Below are positions 2,294-48,657 of a DNA stretch of 64,000 nt, in pieces. A model generated the notes under the pieces. The model saw only the letters and a program-made list of their open reading frames with translations. It searched no databases and had not been told where the DNA came from. The DNA lies in contig NZ_CM001165.1 of assembly GCF_000213055.1 (NCBI RefSeq), forward strand, positions 6,036,945-6,100,944, in the 5' to 3' direction. The position numbers and the translations under genes are program-made. Position 1 is the first letter of the stretch. Each line of letters starts with the position of its first letter. This DNA is from Streptomyces sp. Tu6071. GTDB taxonomy: Bacteria > Actinomycetota > Actinomycetes > Streptomycetales > Streptomycetaceae.

Positions 2294-4463
<2,170 letters not shown>

Positions 4464-4472
4464 CAAGCCCCC

Positions 4473-4560
4473 TCCCTTCGCCGGAATGACCCGGATCAGG
4501 TTCATACGGTCGGAGGCCGCAGCCCCCCTCTCAGCCCGGTCCGCCCGGACTCCCGCGGTG
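4473..4560 (-). promoter_or_regulatory. TPP (THI-box) riboswitch before thiO
   Basis: On the minus strand the region has the THI-box signatures in order: GGGAGTCCGG, then GGGCTGAGAGGG, then CCTCCGACC, then GAACCTGATCCGGGTCA, then CCGGCGAAGGGAG. These are the two TPP-binding helical arms and the closing helix P1. The ribosome-binding purines of thiO follow the 3' strand of P1 within about 10 bases of the GTG start. That geometry suggests TPP binding blocks translation initiation, as known for other actinobacterial thi genes. No intrinsic terminator is seen between aptamer and start. Confidence 0.95.
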
Positions 4561-4803
4561 TGCGCGGCACAGCTTAGGCGGTGCGGGCGCGGCCCCCGGC
4601 GGCGGTCCCCGCTCCACCCGGGCCACGGGCCGTCCCGTCCCGGCCCCTCGGCCCCGGTCGTACGGCCTCCGCCGGGAGGCCCCGGCCCCGGTCCCGATGG
4701 CCCCCGGTCCCCGGTCCCGGATCGTGGGCGGAGGGTCGGTGTGGGCGGGATCTCTTGCGGGCTCGGGCCCGGGGGGTGGGGTGGGCGGCCTAGAGTTGCG
4801 GGC

Positions 4804-42187: not shown

Positions 42188-43507
42188 ATGCCATTGACCC
42201 CCGAGGACGTGCGGAACAAGCAGTTCACGACCGTCCGCCTCCGAGAAGGCTATGACGAGGACGAGGTCGATGCCTTCCTCGACGAGGTAGAGGCCGAACT
42301 GACCAGGCTCGCGCGGGAGAACGAGGACCTGCGGGCGAAACTCGCCGCAGCCACCCGTGCCGCCGCGCAGAACCAGCAGCAGAACATGCGCAAGGGTCCC
42401 GAGCAGCCGGAACGGCCGCAGGGTCCCGGGCCCGCCGCCATATCCGGTCCGCCGCAGGGGCAGCAGCACCCTGGACAGCCGCAGCACCCGGGGCAGCCCC
42501 AGCACCCCGGTCAGCCGCAGCACCCCGGCCAGCCCCAGCACCCGGGTCAGCAGCAGCACCCGCAGCAGCAGCACATGGGCGGTCCGCCCCAGCTGCCCTC
42601 CGGTGCCCCGCAGCTCCCCTCCGGTCCGGGCGGTCACGGTCCGCAGGGTCCCGGCCCGATGGGCCAGGGTCCGATGGGCGGCCCGCAGGGCCCCGGTCCC
42701 ATGGGACAGATGGCTCCGCAGGGCCCCGGCCCGATGGGGCAGCAGGGTCCCGGCCCCATGGGCCAGCAGGGTCCCGGTCCGATGGGCCAGGGTCCGATGG
42801 GTGGCCCGCAGGGCCCGATGGGCCAGCCGCAGCAGCAGATGGTCGGCCCGCTCGGCCACGGCGGCCCGCAGCTGCCGCAGCCCGGCCAGGGTCCCGGTGG
42901 CGACAGCGCCGCGCGTGTCCTCTCGCTCGCCCAGCAGACCGCCGACCAGGCGATCGCCGAGGCGCGTTCCGAGGCCAACAAGATCGTCGGTGAGGCCCGC
43001 AGCCGCGCCGAAGGTCTGGAGCGCGACGCCCGTGCCAAGGCGGACGCCCTGGAGCGGGACGCGCAGGAGAAGCACCGCGTCGCGATGGGCTCCCTGGAGT
43101 CCGCCCGCGCCACGCTGGAGCGCAAGGTCGAGGACCTGCGCGGCTTCGAGCGCGAGTACCGGACGCGACTGAAGTCGTACCTGGAGTCGCAGCTGCGCCA
43201 GCTGGAGACGCAGTCGGACGACTCGCTCGCCCCGCCGCGTGTCTCCTCGACGCCGTCGCTGCCGCCGTCCCCCTCGCCCTCCATGGCCCCGGCCGGTGCG
43301 CCGTCCTTCGGCGGCGGGCACAACGGTCCCGGCCCGATGGGTGGCCCCACGCCGCCTTCGGCCGGTCCCTCGTACGGGGGCGGGCAGCAGCAGATGTCCC
43401 CGGCGATGACGCAGCCGATGGCGCCGGTACGGCCGCAGGCGCCGCAGCCGATGCAGCAGGCTCCGTCGCCGATGCGGGGATTCCTGATCGACGAGGACGA
43501 CAACTGA
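42188..43507 (+). CDS. divIVA: Polar growth protein DivIVA
   Basis: Essential coiled-coil protein marking hyphal tips and directing apical wall growth. The 439-residue protein has the membrane-binding N-terminus [20 protein letters not shown] followed by a short coiled coil ([19 protein letters not shown]). A Gln/Pro/Gly/Met-rich low-complexity linker spans residues 65-235. A long second coiled coil (about 240-345, [20 protein letters not shown] onwards) and a Pro-rich tail ending in FLIDEDDN follow. This split-coil architecture is characteristic of streptomycetes. Confidence 0.97.
42461..42574 (+). repeat. In-frame 18-bp repeats encoding HPGQPQ in DivIVA
   Basis: At least four consecutive 18-bp units encode HPGQPQ, flanked by related QQHP-containing copies. 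A second low-complexity block follows at 42654-42830 with recurring GPMGQ and GPQGP. Both belong to the linker between the two DivIVA coiled coils; such regions vary in length between species. Confidence 0.85.
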
Positions 43508-43705: not shown

Positions 43706-46700
43706 TCAGCCCACCTTGTGCAGCGCGAACGTCAGCCCGAGACCCGCGTCCTCGAAGGGCTTGCCGTAGAGCTCCGTCGGCTCGCCCTCCGCGTAGTCCG
43801 TGGCCAGGACCTCGTCCGCGATCAGTGCCGCGTGCTCGCGCAGGGCCTCGGCCAGGGCCGGGTCCTGGGTCGTCCAGCGCAGGGCGATGCGGTCGGCCAC
43901 GTCGAGTCCGCTGTTCTTGCGGGCCTCCTGGACGAGGCGGATCGCGTCGCGGGCCAGGCCGGCGCGGCGCAGTTCCTCGGTGATCTCCAGGTCGAGGGCG
44001 ACCGTGGCGCCCGCCTCCGAGGCGACCGCCCAGCCCTCGCGCGGGGTCTCCGTCAGGAAGACCTCCTCGGGGGAGAGGGCCACCTCGGCGCCGTCCACGA
44101 GGACCGTCGCCGTGCCCGTCTCGCGCAGGGACGCCGAGAGCGCCGCCGCGTCCGCGTCGGCGACCGCCTTCGCGACCGCCTGCACGCCCTTGCCGAACCG
44201 CTTGCCGAGCGCACGGAAGTTCGCCTTCGCGCTCGTGTCCACGAGGGAGGCGCCGACCTCGCCGAGCGAGGCGAGCCCCGCGACGTTCAGCTCCTCCGCG
44301 ATCTGCGCCCGCAGCTCCTCGCCCAGCGTCTCGAAGCCCGTCGCCGCGATGAGCGCGCGGCTCAGCGGCTGCCGGGTCTTGACGCCGGACTCGGCGCGCG
44401 TCGCGCGGCCCAGCTCCACGAGCCGCCGCACGAGCGCCATCTGCCGCGACAGCTCCTCGTCCACGGCCCCGGAATCCGCTTCGGGCCAGCTCGCCATGTG
44501 CACCGACTCCGGTGCCGAGGCGTCCACGGAGACCACGAGGTCCTGCCAGACCCGCTCCGTGACGAAGGGGACGAGCGGGGCCATGAGCCGCGTGACCGTC
44601 TCGACGACCTCGTGCAGGGTGCGCAGCGCCGCCTTGTCGCCCTGCCAGAAGCGGCGGCGCGAGCGGCGCACGTACCAGTTGGAGAGGTCGTCGACGAAGG
44701 CGGAGAGGAGCTGCCCGGTGCGGTGGGTGTCGTACGACTCCAGCGCCTCGGTGACCCCGGCGGTGAGCTTGTGCAGCTCGGACAGGAGCCAGCGGTCGAT
44801 GACGGGGCGCTCGGCGGGGGCCGGGTCGGCGGCCGAGGGCGCCCAGTGCGACGTCCGGGCGTACAGGGCCTGGAAGGCCACGGTGTTCCAGTACGTGAGG
44901 AGCGTCTTGCGGACGACCTCCTGGATCGTGCCGTGCCCGACGCGGCGTGCCGCCCAGGGCGAGCCGCCCGCGGCCATGAACCAGCGCACCGCGTCGGCGC
45001 CGTGCTGGTCCATGAGCGGGATCGGCTGGAGGATGTTGCCCAGGTGTTTGGACATCTTCCGGCCGTCCTCGGCGAGGATGTGGCCGAGGCACACGACGTT
45101 CTCGTAACTCGATTTGTCGAAGACGAGCGTGCCGATCGCCATCAGCGTGTAGAACCAGCCGCGGGTCTGGTCGATCGCCTCGGAGATGAACTGCGCGGGG
45201 TAGCGCGCCTCGAACAGCTCCTTGTTGCGGTACGGGTAGCCCCACTGCGCGAACGGCATCGAACCCGAGTCGTACCAGGCGTCGATGACCTCCTCGACGC
45301 GCGTGGCCCCGGCGCCGCACTCGGGGCACGCGAAGGTGACCGCGTCGATGTACGGGCGGTGCGGGTCCAGGCCCGACTGGTCGGTGCCGGTCAGCTCGCT
45401 CAGCTCGGCGAGGGAGCCGACGCACGTGAGGTGGTTGTCGGGGCAGCGCCAGACGGGCAGCGGGGTGCCCCAGTAGCGCTTGCGCGAGAGCGCCCAGTCG
45501 ACGTTGTTCTTGAGCCAGTCGCCGAAGCGGCCGTGCTTGACGTTCTCCGGGTGCCAGTTGGTCTTCTCGTTCTCCTCCAGGAGGCGGTCGCGCACGGCGG
45601 TCGTGCGGATGTACCAGGAGGGCTGCGCGTAGTAGAGCAGCGCGGTGTGGCAGCGCCAGCAGTGCGGGTAGCTGTGCTCGTACGGGACGTGCTTGAAGAG
45701 CAGGCCGCGGGCCCTGAGGTCGGCGACGAGGTCCTCGTCGGCCTTCTTGAAGAACTGCCCGCCGACGAGCGGCACGTCCTCGGCGAAGGTGCCGTTGGAG
45801 CGGACCGGGTTGACGACGGGGAGACCGTAGGCGCGGCACACGCGCAGGTCGTCCGCGCCGAAGGCGGGGGACTGGTGGACGAGCCCGGTGCCGTCCTCGG
45901 TCGTCACGTACGTGTCGTTGACGACGTAGTGCGCGGCCTCGGGGAACTCGATCAGCTCGAAGGGGCGCCGGTAGGTCCAGCGCTCCATCTCGGCGCCGGT
46001 GAAGCGCTCGCCCGTCGCCTCCCAGCCCTCGCCGAGGGCCTTCTCCAGGAGCGGTTCGGCGACGAGGAGGCGCTCGGTGCCGTCCGTCGCGACGACGTAG
46101 GCGACCTCGGGGTGCGCGGCGACGGCGGTGTTCGAGACGAGCGTCCAGGGCGTCGTCGTCCACACGAGCAGCGCGGTGTTCCCGGCGAGCGGGCCGGAGG
46201 TGAGCGGGAGACGCACGTAGACCGAGGGGTCGACGACGGTCTCGTACCCCTGCGCCAGCTCGTGGTCCGAGAGGCCCGTCTCGTCCTTCGGGCACCACGG
46301 GGCGACGCGGTAGTCCTCGACGAGGAGGCCCTTGTCGAAGATCTGCTTGAGCGACCACCACACGGACTCGACGTACTCGGGGTCCATCGTGCGGTAGGCG
46401 TTCTCGACGTCGAGCCAGTAGCCCATGCGGGTCGTCAGCTCGGTGAAGGCGTCGGTGTGGCGGGTCACGGACTCGCGGCACTTCGCGTTGAACTCCGCGA
46501 TGCCGTACGCCTCGATGTCCTTCTTGCCGGTGAAGCCCAGCTCCTTCTCGACGGCCAGCTCGACCGGCAGGCCGTGGCAGTCCCAGCCGGCCTTGCGGCC
46601 GACGTGGTAGCCACGCATCGTGCGGTAGCGCGGGAAGACGTCCTTGAAGACGCGCGCCTCGATGTGGTGCGCGCCCGGCATGCCGTTGGCGGTCGGCGGG

Positions 46701-46852
46701 CCCTCGTAGAAGACCCACTCGGGGCGGCCCTCGGACTGGGCGAGCGTCCTGGCGAAGGTGTCGCGCTCGCGCCACAGGTCGAGCACGTCGTGTTCGAGAG
46801 CGGGGAGGTCCACCTGGGCGGGGACGGGTCGGTACTGCGGCGGGGTCGTCAT
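43706..46852 (-). CDS. ileS: Isoleucyl-tRNA synthetase, IleRS2-like with altered HIGH motif
   Basis: Charges tRNA-Ile. The 1048-residue class I synthetase has a Rossmann core, an editing domain (WTTTPWTLVSNTAVA) and the KMSKS-type loop GRKMSKHLGN. The N-terminal signature reads PTANGMPGAHHIEAR: G60-A-H-H63 stands where HxGH is expected. Swapped GxHH has been described in mupirocin hyper-resistant IleRS2 proteins. Length and the overall pattern fit the eukaryote-like IleRS2 branch common in actinobacteria. ATG at 46852 follows GGAGGAG. It is controlled by a T-box leader. No second ileS is present in the window. Confidence 0.95.
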   Translation of the reverse strand: MTTPPQYRPVPAQVDLPALEHDVLDLWRERDTFARTLAQSEGRPEWVFYEGPPTANGMPGAHHIEARVFKDVFPRYRTMRGYHVGRKAGWDCHGLPVELAVEKELGFTGKKDIEAYGIAEFNAKCRESVTRHTDAFTELTTRMGYWLDVENAYRTMDPEYVESVWWSLKQIFDKGLLVEDYRVAPWCPKDETGLSDHELAQGYETVVDPSVYVRLPLTSGPLAGNTALLVWTTTPWTLVSNTAVAAHPEVAYVVATDGTERLLVAEPLLEKALGEGWEATGERFTGAEMERWTYRRPFELIEFPEAAHYVVNDTYVTTEDGTGLVHQSPAFGADDLRVCRAYGLPVVNPVRSNGTFAEDVPLVGGQFFKKADEDLVADLRARGLLFKHVPYEHSYPHCWRCHTALLYYAQPSWYIRTTAVRDRLLEENEKTNWHPENVKHGRFGDWLKNNVDWALSRKRYWGTPLPVWRCPDNHLTCVGSLAELSELTGTDQSGLDPHRPYIDAVTFACPECGAGATRVEEVIDAWYDSGSMPFAQWGYPYRNKELFEARYPAQFISEAIDQTRGWFYTLMAIGTLVFDKSSYENVVCLGHILAEDGRKMSKHLGNILQPIPLMDQHGADAVRWFMAAGGSPWAARRVGHGTIQEVVRKTLLTYWNTVAFQALYARTSHWAPSAADPAPAERPVIDRWLLSELHKLTAGVTEALESYDTHRTGQLLSAFVDDLSNWYVRRSRRRFWQGDKAALRTLHEVVETVTRLMAPLVPFVTERVWQDLVVSVDASAPESVHMASWPEADSGAVDEELSRQMALVRRLVELGRATRAESGVKTRQPLSRALIAATGFETLGEELRAQIAEELNVAGLASLGEVGASLVDTSAKANFRALGKRFGKGVQAVAKAVADADAAALSASLRETGTATVLVDGAEVALSPEEVFLTETPREGWAVASEAGATVALDLEITEELRRAGLARDAIRLVQEARKNSGLDVADRIALRWTTQDPALAEALREHAALIADEVLATDYAEGEPTELYGKPFEDAGLGLTFALHKVG

Positions 46853-47135
46853 GGGGCTCGTTGCTCCTCCGGCGGATCTGCTGTTCCGTCGGAGGGACGA
46901 GAGCCGACGCGCTCCCGCGGTACCACCCTCCTTGGCCGCCGGGCGACTGCCCTGCGGCCCCCTCATTGGGTCCGCGAAGCCGGTTCTACGGCCGCGGGGC
47001 ACTCACCCCTGGCTTTCCTCCGGCGGCTCCGGGGGTGATCTTCGCGACGCGCGTGCCCCCGGGCTTCCACCGTCCCCGGGTCGCTCCTGGCCGCTTCTCG
47101 GCGCTACTCGTCCCCATCCACACCTGTGTTTCGCT
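46853..47135 (-). promoter_or_regulatory. T-box riboswitch controlling ileS (translational type)
   Basis: The minus strand carries the T-box core AGGGTGGTACCGCGG at 46915-46929, which pairs with the uncharged tRNA acceptor end. About 110 bases upstream, GAAGATCACCCC offers an ATC isoleucine specifier at 47037-47039. Downstream, CCCTCCG can pair with the CCGGAGGAG that holds the ileS ribosome site, forming a sequestrator. No terminator is seen, so control should be at translation initiation, as established for actinobacterial ileS T-boxes. The short stem I also fits that group. Confidence 0.9.
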
Positions 47136-47141
47136 GCCGCA

Positions 47142-47147
47142 AGTGTA
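47142..47147 (-). promoter_or_regulatory. Candidate -10 of the ileS promoter
   Basis: TACACT on the minus strand, giving a predicted start near 47135 and a T-box leader of about 280 bases. The -35 region is not well conserved. Confidence 0.45.
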
Positions 47148-47416
47148 CGGGTACGGGGTGGGCGGGCCGCCACGGCTCCACCCGGGCCCGCCCGCTCCCG
47201 GCCGGACGGGCGGCGGGGCCGCCGGGGGAGGGCGCACGGTGGCGCGTGGCGGACGGGCGGCGTGGCCCGTTGCCGTGCGGGGGATGTCGATTTATCGTCC
47301 CACCACCGTGTGTGCGGGGCTGTTTCGCGTACGCGGGGGCAGGAACGAGGAATATCGCAGGCCGGTCCGGTGCTGCGTCTGCGGCAAGCGGTACGACGAA
47401 GGTGATGGAGGAGATC

Positions 47417-47842
47417 GTGCCCACTACGCGCGGCGGAGCGACGGACCCCGCTGAACTGGCGGTACGGCCCGGCGAGGACCCCTGGACGGCTGAGGAGGCC
47501 GCCGAGGCGAGGCATGGCCTGGAACAGGAGATCGCCGGGCTGCGGGCCGAGCTGGAGACGGCCGAGGCGGACCTCGCGAGCCTGATGCGGGACTCCGCGG
47601 ACGGGGCGGGGGACGACGAGGCGGACACCGGGACGAAGAACGTGACCCGGGAGCACGAGCTGGCGCTCGCCGCGGGCTCGCGGGAGCGGCTCGAACAGAC
47701 GGAGCGGGCGCTGCTGCGGATGGACGCGGGGACGTACGGCGTGTGCGAGAACTGCGGGAAGCCGATCGGGAAGGCGCGGATGCAGGCGTTTCCGCATGCC
47801 ATCTTGTGCGTGGACTGCAAGCAGAAGTCGGAGCGGCGCTGA
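47417..47842 (+). CDS. TraR/DksA-family zinc-finger protein
   Basis: A 141-residue protein. Its N-terminal two thirds are helical and acidic (LEQEIAGLRAELETAEADLA), forming the coiled-coil finger of DksA-like proteins. A C4 zinc finger is near the C-terminus: CENC at about residue 114 and CVDC at about 133, with KPIGKARMQAFPHA between. DksA relatives act in the RNA polymerase secondary channel, but many actinobacterial members are uncharacterised. The GTG at 47417 is favoured by GGAGGAG; an ATG at 47405 precedes that site. Streptomyces homologues I recall have a long Lys/Ala-rich N-terminus, which is absent here. Confidence 0.88.
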   Translation: MPTTRGGATDPAELAVRPGEDPWTAEEAAEARHGLEQEIAGLRAELETAEADLASLMRDSADGAGDDEADTGTKNVTREHELALAAGSRERLEQTERALLRMDAGTYGVCENCGKPIGKARMQAFPHAILCVDCKQKSERR

Positions 47843-48042: not shown

Positions 48043-48657
48043 GTGGCTGAGGCGGAGCGCACCATCGAGAGAGTCTCGTCCGAGCGTACGGGCAAGGGGC
48101 CGCGGCGCGTGCTCGCGTTGTTCGTGGTGGCCGTGCTCGTGTACGCCGTCGACCTCGTGAGCAAGCTGCTCGTGGTCGCGCGGCTGGAGGGGCACGGGGA
48201 CGGGTCCGTGCAGGTCATCGGGGACTGGCTGCGGCTCACCGCGATCCGGAACTCCGGGGCGGCCTTCTCGATGGGCGAGGCGTACACGATCGTCTTCACG
48301 ATCATCGCCGTCGGCGTCATCGTCGTGATCGCCCGGCTCGCCCGCAAGCTGCACAGCCTGCCCTGGGCCGTCGCGCTCGGGCTGCTCCTCGGGGGCGCCC
48401 TCGGGAACCTCACGGACCGCGTCTTCCGCTCCCCGGGCGTCTTCCGGGGCGCCGTCGTCGACTTCATCGCCCCCAAGGGCTACGCCGTCTTCAACCTCGC
48501 GGACTCCGCGATCGTGTGCGGCGGCATCCTCATCGTCCTGCTCTCCTTCCGCGGTCTCGACCCGGACGGCACCAGGCACCGTGACGAGAAGGCAGCCGAG
48601 GAAAAGGGCGAGGGCGAGGACGAGGAGAAGGGCCGGGCGGAGAGCGTGGGCGAGTAG
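48043..48657 (+). CDS. lspA: Lipoprotein signal peptidase LspA
   Basis: Aspartic protease cleaving lipoprotein signal peptides at the membrane. The 204-residue protein has four helices. The catalytic Asp residues are in [13 protein letters not shown] (about residue 126) and [13 protein letters not shown] (about 153). [11 protein letters not shown] is the conserved LspA loop. The C-terminal 35 residues are highly charged (Glu/Lys-rich), longer than in E. coli LspA. The GTG start has weak ribosome-binding purines (TTGAGGACGTCAC). Followed by the pseudouridine synthase gene. Confidence 0.95.

Follow-up and report, generated by a model that had tools for sequence, protein, structure and literature searches.

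The single ileS gene found in Streptomyces sp. Tu6071 encodes, with a probability that we put at roughly 0.94, the ordinary housekeeping isoleucyl-tRNA synthetase (IleRS) of the genus, a type-2 enzyme whose first class I signature is naturally swapped from HxGH to GxHH. The gene lies in the 64,000-nucleotide stretch of DNA analysed here, which we call the window. The trait is inherited and was not newly gained in the Tu6071 strain. Both the link of this motif to resistance and its genus-wide presence in Streptomyces are already known and in print.

A housekeeping synthetase of type 2

Judged by domain make-up and nearest solved relatives, the window IleRS is of type 2. Its profile score of 900.3 bits against the ileS equivalog TIGR00392 (cut-off 621.4) places it within that family, and it carries the domains PF00133, PF08264 and PF19302 (DUF5915; 148.8 bits). 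PF06827 (zf-FPG_IleRS) is absent from a domain scan of the whole protein. The E. coli IleRS1 shows the reverse in its own scan, with PF06827 present and PF19302 absent, and the use of DUF5915 as a type-2 marker is our own reading of these two scans. Among solved chains, the IleRS2 entries 8c8u, 8c8v, 8c8w and 8c9d and the Thermus enzyme 1ile score highest, at 873-887 bits, against 346 bits for the type-1 chain 1ffy. In two quick trees that include few IleRS1 rows (116 and 82 rows, see below), the protein groups with IleRS2 and apart from IleRS1 on a branch with an SH-aLRT of 100. Two other assignments were rejected: type 1, since neither HxGH nor the C-terminal zinc finger is present, and MupA/MupB, with scores of 742.2 and 725.2 bits (NF000257 and NF000258) against an exception-model cut-off of 1900.

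The motif itself had been reported in a first-pass annotation of this DNA, which read GAHH where class I enzymes have HxGH; translation confirms both its exact coordinates and its residue numbers (Table 1). It stands in the protein context GPPTANGMP-GAHH-IEARVFKD (DNA context GPPTANGMPGAHHIEARVFKD). Aligned with IleRS representatives, GAHH sits without a gap over the HVGH of Priestia megaterium IleRS2 (8c8u) and of Thermus IleRS (1ile), and over the GVHH of chain 8c8w, identified from its letters and from PMC10485003 as the published GVHH mutant. The annotation would have been undermined by a canonical HxGH elsewhere in the catalytic core, and a scan of the whole protein found no H-x-G-H anywhere. 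The pattern [GA]-x-H-H occurs exactly once, so placed that glycine stands at position 1 and histidines at positions 3 and 4, as in the published G/AXHH definition, and the sole H-x-G-[HNT] string, HLGN, arises because it is part of KMSKHLGN. Residue 591 (in C-L-G-H) is a histidine like His582 of the Priestia enzyme (PmIleRS2), a position at which IleRS1 has a stacking phenylalanine (PMC10485003). Asp335 in the CP1 editing domain is probably the counterpart of Asp334 of S. griseus IleRS, for which a role in post-transfer editing has been described (PMC4861432).

Table 1. Features of the ileS region, in window coordinates
Feature	Position	Strand	Basis or remark
ileS, type-2 isoleucyl-tRNA synthetase	43706..46852	-	1048 aa plus stop, intact frame, start ATG 46850-46852
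First class I signature, GAHH for HxGH, residues 60-63	46664..46675	-	letters GGCGCGCACCAC; alignment to 1ile, 8c8u, 8c8w
Second class I signature, KMSKH for KMSKS, residues 599-603	45044..45058	-	translation and alignment
Asp335, CP1 editing domain	45848..45850	-	aligned with the conserved second D of GAED (Thermus) and GPDD (E. coli)
Putative T-box leader, RF00230-like	46890..47129	-	cmscan 39.4 bits, E 2.2e-7, below the gathering score of 93
T-box core GGTGGTACCGCG	46916..46927	-	sequence
Specifier context GAAGATCAC, isoleucine codon ATC	47035..47043	-	cmscan and sequence
CCUCCG, shared arm	46890..46895	-	predicted to pair with the Shine-Dalgarno (sequestrator) or the T-box side (antisequestrator)
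CGGAGG, Shine-Dalgarno of ileS, sequestered arm	46866..46871	-	sequence and predicted hairpin
divIVA, neighbour	42188..43507	+	PF05103
TraR/DksA-type zinc-finger gene, divergent neighbour	47126..47842	+	PF01258; GTG start set mechanically, true start probably further in
lspA, neighbour	48043..48657	+	PF01252

The gene was also said to be the only ileS of the window and to occupy the normal housekeeping position, and this holds: the neighbourhood comprises sepF, divIVA, a traR/dksA-type gene, lspA and a pseudouridine synthase gene. Such a setting is, we assume, where actinobacterial ileS usually lies. A search for a second ileS in the complete genome (7.5 Mb, 2 contigs, completeness 100, contamination 0.7), proposed in the same annotation, found none with either the window protein or E. 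coli IleRS1 as query. The window protein retrieved itself and one further gene, the next best, which is a ValRS (1166 bits to NF004349, cut-off 704); E. coli IleRS1 retrieved the same two genes and one weak piece.

Close relatives share the swap, so that the window gene is the normal housekeeping ileS of its group. Each of the 61 genomes searched within the genus has it in its primary IleRS (60 with GAHH, one with GTHH), and so does every one of the 80 named Streptomyces loci; GAHH is thus not due to chance. One of the named loci, L108 (Streptomyces jumonjinensis), has in its record an in-frame stop inside ileS, probably a sequence error. That GAHH is a sequencing artefact, or the protein a dead synthetase-like relic with the real IleRS encoded elsewhere, is an explanation for which no support was found and which we regard as extremely improbable. 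An artefact or pseudogene is ruled out by the intact 1048-residue frame, the 900-bit TIGR00392 score, a copy in genome G010 that is 97% identical, and the swap in 61/61 genomes; the searches of the genome found no further IleRS.

Probable mupirocin resistance

The first-pass annotation had named GxHH as the cause of very high mupirocin resistance in some IleRS2 enzymes, and the published work says as much (PMC10485003, PMC4861432). In this context, Brkic et al. connected G/AXHH with mupirocin hyper-resistance in 2023, naming S. griseus IleRS2 as a carrier and counting the motif in 86 IleRS2, and in no IleRS1, of their 379-sequence tree (PMC10485003). They give a Ki for mupirocin of 6.6 mM for the IleRS2 of D. 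radiodurans, a natural carrier, and report that motif exchange in one direction lowered the Ki 823-fold and in the other, per their table, raised it about 175- and 430-fold (PMC10485003). Earlier, Cvetesic et al. (2016) had measured 10 mM as the Ki of the S. griseus IleRS and found that E. coli is rescued by this enzyme at 100 uM mupirocin (PMC4861432).

Published work on the enzymes of S. griseus, Deinococcus, Thermus and Priestia allows a mechanism to be proposed. The tip of helix alpha1 would be displaced in IleRS2, so that the histidine at the third position could take over the catalytic work of the first and leave the adenine undisturbed. Binding of mupirocin would push the tip back, and the bulky third-position histidine would then clash with the drug, a clash that could raise the Ki into the millimolar range. 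The displaced helix tip is also the explanation offered in PMC10485003, where the clash between histidine and mupirocin is modelled.

Among the 80 named loci with the swap are those of S. californicus and S. fimicarius, whose enzymes are 83-84% identical to the window IleRS. Both species presumably stand near S. griseus. From close orthologs such as S. griseus IleRS we infer that the window enzyme is insensitive to mupirocin, in support of the earlier suggestion that the primary synthetase may be so. If this is right, a whole genus of soil bacteria, and not one strain, should be insensitive through its resident IleRS. The second residue of the window motif, alanine, is outside the list of Ile, Val, Leu, Met and Tyr in the Fig. 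1 legend of PMC10485003, yet it is the rule in the genus.

Spread and age of the swap

We followed the motif beyond the genus in two samples. In the class sample of 148 genomes, motifs were read in 70 (41 in an upper and 29 in a lower identity group; L026, which the class alignment lacked, was read from the named-locus set), and these fall into two types of IleRS2: 41 rows with GxHH, at least 60% identical to the window protein, and 29 rows with HYGH, at about 37-45%. Outside the class sample, 46 loci were read from a phylum sample of 149 genomes, 33 of them swapped and 13 canonical. Trees of 116 and 82 rows were built quickly from hand-picked subsets with the motif columns kept in; two extra hits, L146 and L147 in G025 and G040, were excluded and are ValRS of the alt_ValS kind. 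The 116-row tree unites 68 GxHH rows, drawn both from the window's class and from beyond it, in a single clade; another 4 GxHH rows make up a clade that stands apart, and the motif state changes only twice.

Protein searches extended the picture; each covers the best 120 of about 8000 scored proteins, and all counts from them describe near relatives of the queries. Around the Thermus IleRS, 94 of these best 120 have GxHH and 26 have HxGH. GxHH occurs there in proteins labelled Deinococcus (17/17, with Deinobacterium), Marinithermus, Oceanithermus, Armatimonadetes, Anaerolineae and Chloroflexi. Because the window motif belongs to a GxHH clade and the same swap recurs under labels such as Deinococcus, Armatimonadetes and Chloroflexi, the sequences place its origin far before Streptomyces, in an old inherited clade. 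Twenty-five of the 26 HxGH proteins are Thermus-like (P0241-P0265), and their position among GxHH relatives is in line with the reversion described in PMC10485003. The remaining one, P0351, stands apart as a lone HIGH/KMSKS protein among GxHH relatives and is perhaps another reversion. In an alignment of 104 swapped rows the second residue is Ala in 44, Thr in 25, Val in 20, Ile in 9, Ser in 3, Leu in 2 and Phe in 1, a wider range than the five residues of the published legend (PMC10485003).

How the swap came to be kept is a separate question. The resistance may be real and still a by-product: GxHH would be an old active-site solution, passed on vertically and retained for reasons other than mupirocin, for instance because the IleRS2 fold tolerates it, and it would not be an adaptation by which soil Streptomyces withstand mupirocin producers. 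The single large clade with only two state changes and the reach of GxHH to distant labels among the 94 proteins fit such an account, to which we give somewhat less than even odds. An old origin is nevertheless compatible with repeated exposure to such inhibitors, and the loss of the swap in the Thermus-like proteins and P0351 could reflect relaxed selection. Selection by antibiotics is also what Brkic et al. (PMC10485003) and Cvetesic et al. (PMC4861432) argue.

Several single loci deserve mention. In the genus coded g141, G229 (L219) and G310 (L218) have HYGH and G299 (L244) has GTHH, and this mixture of IleRS2 types within one genus suggests replacement of ileS. In L257, L258 and L260, which are type-1-like, the motif reads HLGT or HMGT, the fourth histidine being replaced by threonine; L233 is a canonical-type IleRS2 with HFGN for HYGH. 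A second IleRS2 is present in one of the 61 genus genomes, at L145:7090-10287(-) (G038 C1:6676138-6679263). It has canonical HYGH and KMSKS signatures, scores 786 bits against TIGR00392 and is 41-43% identical to the window IleRS. Its neighbours encode AMP-binding/carrier/reductase, DUF2817, CmcI-like, JmjC/cupin and phosphopantetheinyl transferase domains, and it has the appearance of a copy for self-resistance within a small biosynthetic cluster, for which sbzA of the SB-203208 cluster offers a comparison (PMC9113183).

The second signature

A changed second signature accompanies the swap in the window protein, where KMSKH replaces KMSKS. KMSKH is found in 61/61 genus genomes. In the class sample (70 genomes read), KMSKH stands in 31 and RMSKH in 10 of the 41 GxHH rows, and KMSKS in all 29 HYGH rows. 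Beyond the class, the 33 swapped loci divide into 25 with KMSKS, 3 with KMSKR, one with KMSKH (L254) and 4 with the loop of the separate lineage described below; of the 13 canonical loci, 12 have KMSKS and one has KLSKR. In the 116-row tree, KMSKH is nested inside the GxHH clade.

A separate GxHH lineage (L239, L240, L241 and L256, with P0121-P0240, near relatives from the best 120 of about 8000 scored) has a different loop, [PAE]MHKS, in 117 of 124 rows. In this form the first lysine of KMSKS is lost. The individual loops in these 124 rows are PMHKS (89), AMHKS (21), EMHKS (7), EMHRS (4), EMHYS (1), EFSKS (1) and EMHGS (1), and the first signature is GVHH in 117, GAHH in 3, AVHT in one, AVHH in one and missing in two fragments. 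Apart from the IleRS whose motif was read in G111, G162, G169 and G204, a search with E. coli IleRS1 of these genomes and of the congeners G123 and G182, of which G111 is 82% and G123 62% complete, gave no other IleRS above about 140 bits. DUF5915 occurs once in each of the six.

These patterns raise the idea that both signatures were remodelled together. GxHH would favour a histidine in the KMSKS loop, or gain from one, in a second step that adjusts how ATP is handled or how the drug is kept out. Histidine in the pentapeptide is seen in swapped enzymes only (31 of 62 swapped against 0 of 20 canonical rows in the 82-row tree), and a second GxHH clade with its own histidine-bearing loop points the same way. 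Against this, the origins are few: in the 82-row tree the loop state changes four times and the swap three times, so that an independent-pairs sign test has 3 pairs, gives p 0.5-1 and is unable to reach 0.05. The usual loop is moreover kept in 28 of the 33 swapped rows outside the class sample and, as KMSKS, KMSKR or KMSKT, in 94/94 GxHH proteins of the Thermus-IleRS set (best 120 of about 8000). Since these 94 do without it, GxHH does not require a loop change, and KMSKH was rejected as its necessary partner; a tendency of the two to occur together may exist. We consider a functional coupling of the two signatures unlikely; the evidence for joint remodelling in two GxHH lineages is suggestive and comes from few independent events.

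On a similarly doubtful footing we would read the second signature as rebuilt separately, as [KR]MSKH across the actinomycete GxHH lineage to which the window belongs and as [PAE]MHKS elsewhere, with members in the same phylum; should the loop histidine compensate for the swap, these enzymes would activate isoleucine through a modified class I mechanism. A text search of the literature, which does not extend to alignments in figures, found no relevant paper with the string KMSKH. The KMSKS loop is taken as near-universal in class I synthetases, and here it is changed in two lineages with swapped HIGH motifs, one of them without the first lysine. Such lineages would allow a direct test of how the two motifs share their work.

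Comparison with known systems

The closest described system is S. griseus IleRS (SgIleRS2), which shares with the window enzyme the genus, type 2, the non-canonical motif and the housekeeping role (PMC4861432, PMC10485003). It differs in species; the Ki of 10 mM belongs to the S. griseus enzyme, whose motif is taken here from the published statement that it is non-canonical (PMC4861432, PMC10485003). D. radiodurans IleRS2 likewise has a swapped first signature, but it reads ALHH, with alanine as the first letter, it comes from another phylum, and the Ki of 6.6 mM is that of the Deinococcus enzyme (PMC10485003). Among the best 120 of about 8000, each of the 17 proteins labelled Deinococcus or Deinobacterium has KMSKS, unlike the KMSKH of the window. 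The nearest solved structures are the 1032-residue P. megaterium IleRS2 as wild type (8c8u) and as GVHH mutant (8c8w), which align gap-free at both signatures. The wild type has HVGH and both chains have KMSKS, in contrast to GAHH and KMSKH in the window.

The plasmid-borne MupA and MupB (NF000257, NF000258) are resistant type-2 IleRS as well. They are acquired second genes (PMC10485003), whereas the window gene is the resident ileS.

A putative T-box leader upstream of ileS

A translational T-box probably governs the expression of ileS and would do so by sensing uncharged tRNA-Ile; the element is recognised by sequence and would act as others of its kind do. The core, an isoleucine specifier and a hairpin predicted to hide the Shine-Dalgarno are all found, with a cmscan score below the gathering value (Table 1), and the leader is consequently not reported at the Rfam gathering threshold. 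The core GGTGGTACCGCG occurs in 80/80 named Streptomyces loci, in the stretch of up to 700 bases that precedes the GPPTAN codons, and in 0/80 of the control stretches, 700 bases each, taken further along these loci. The exact specifier string GAANATCAC is present in 70 of the 80 and absent as such from 10. Two alternative hairpins that share CCUCCG are predicted, one hiding the Shine-Dalgarno (z -2.96) and one on the T-box side (z -3.72).

Translational T-boxes before ileS have already been described in Actinobacteria (PMC1262725, which we take to be Seliverstov et al. 2005), and the window leader is for this reason a known element. Like those, it has a T-box core and, ahead of ileS, a hairpin that covers the Shine-Dalgarno, and in a comparison by description, not base by base, no difference was noticed (PMC1262725). 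Elsewhere in the window, a candidate TPP riboswitch lies at 4456-4566 on the minus strand, with 56 bits.
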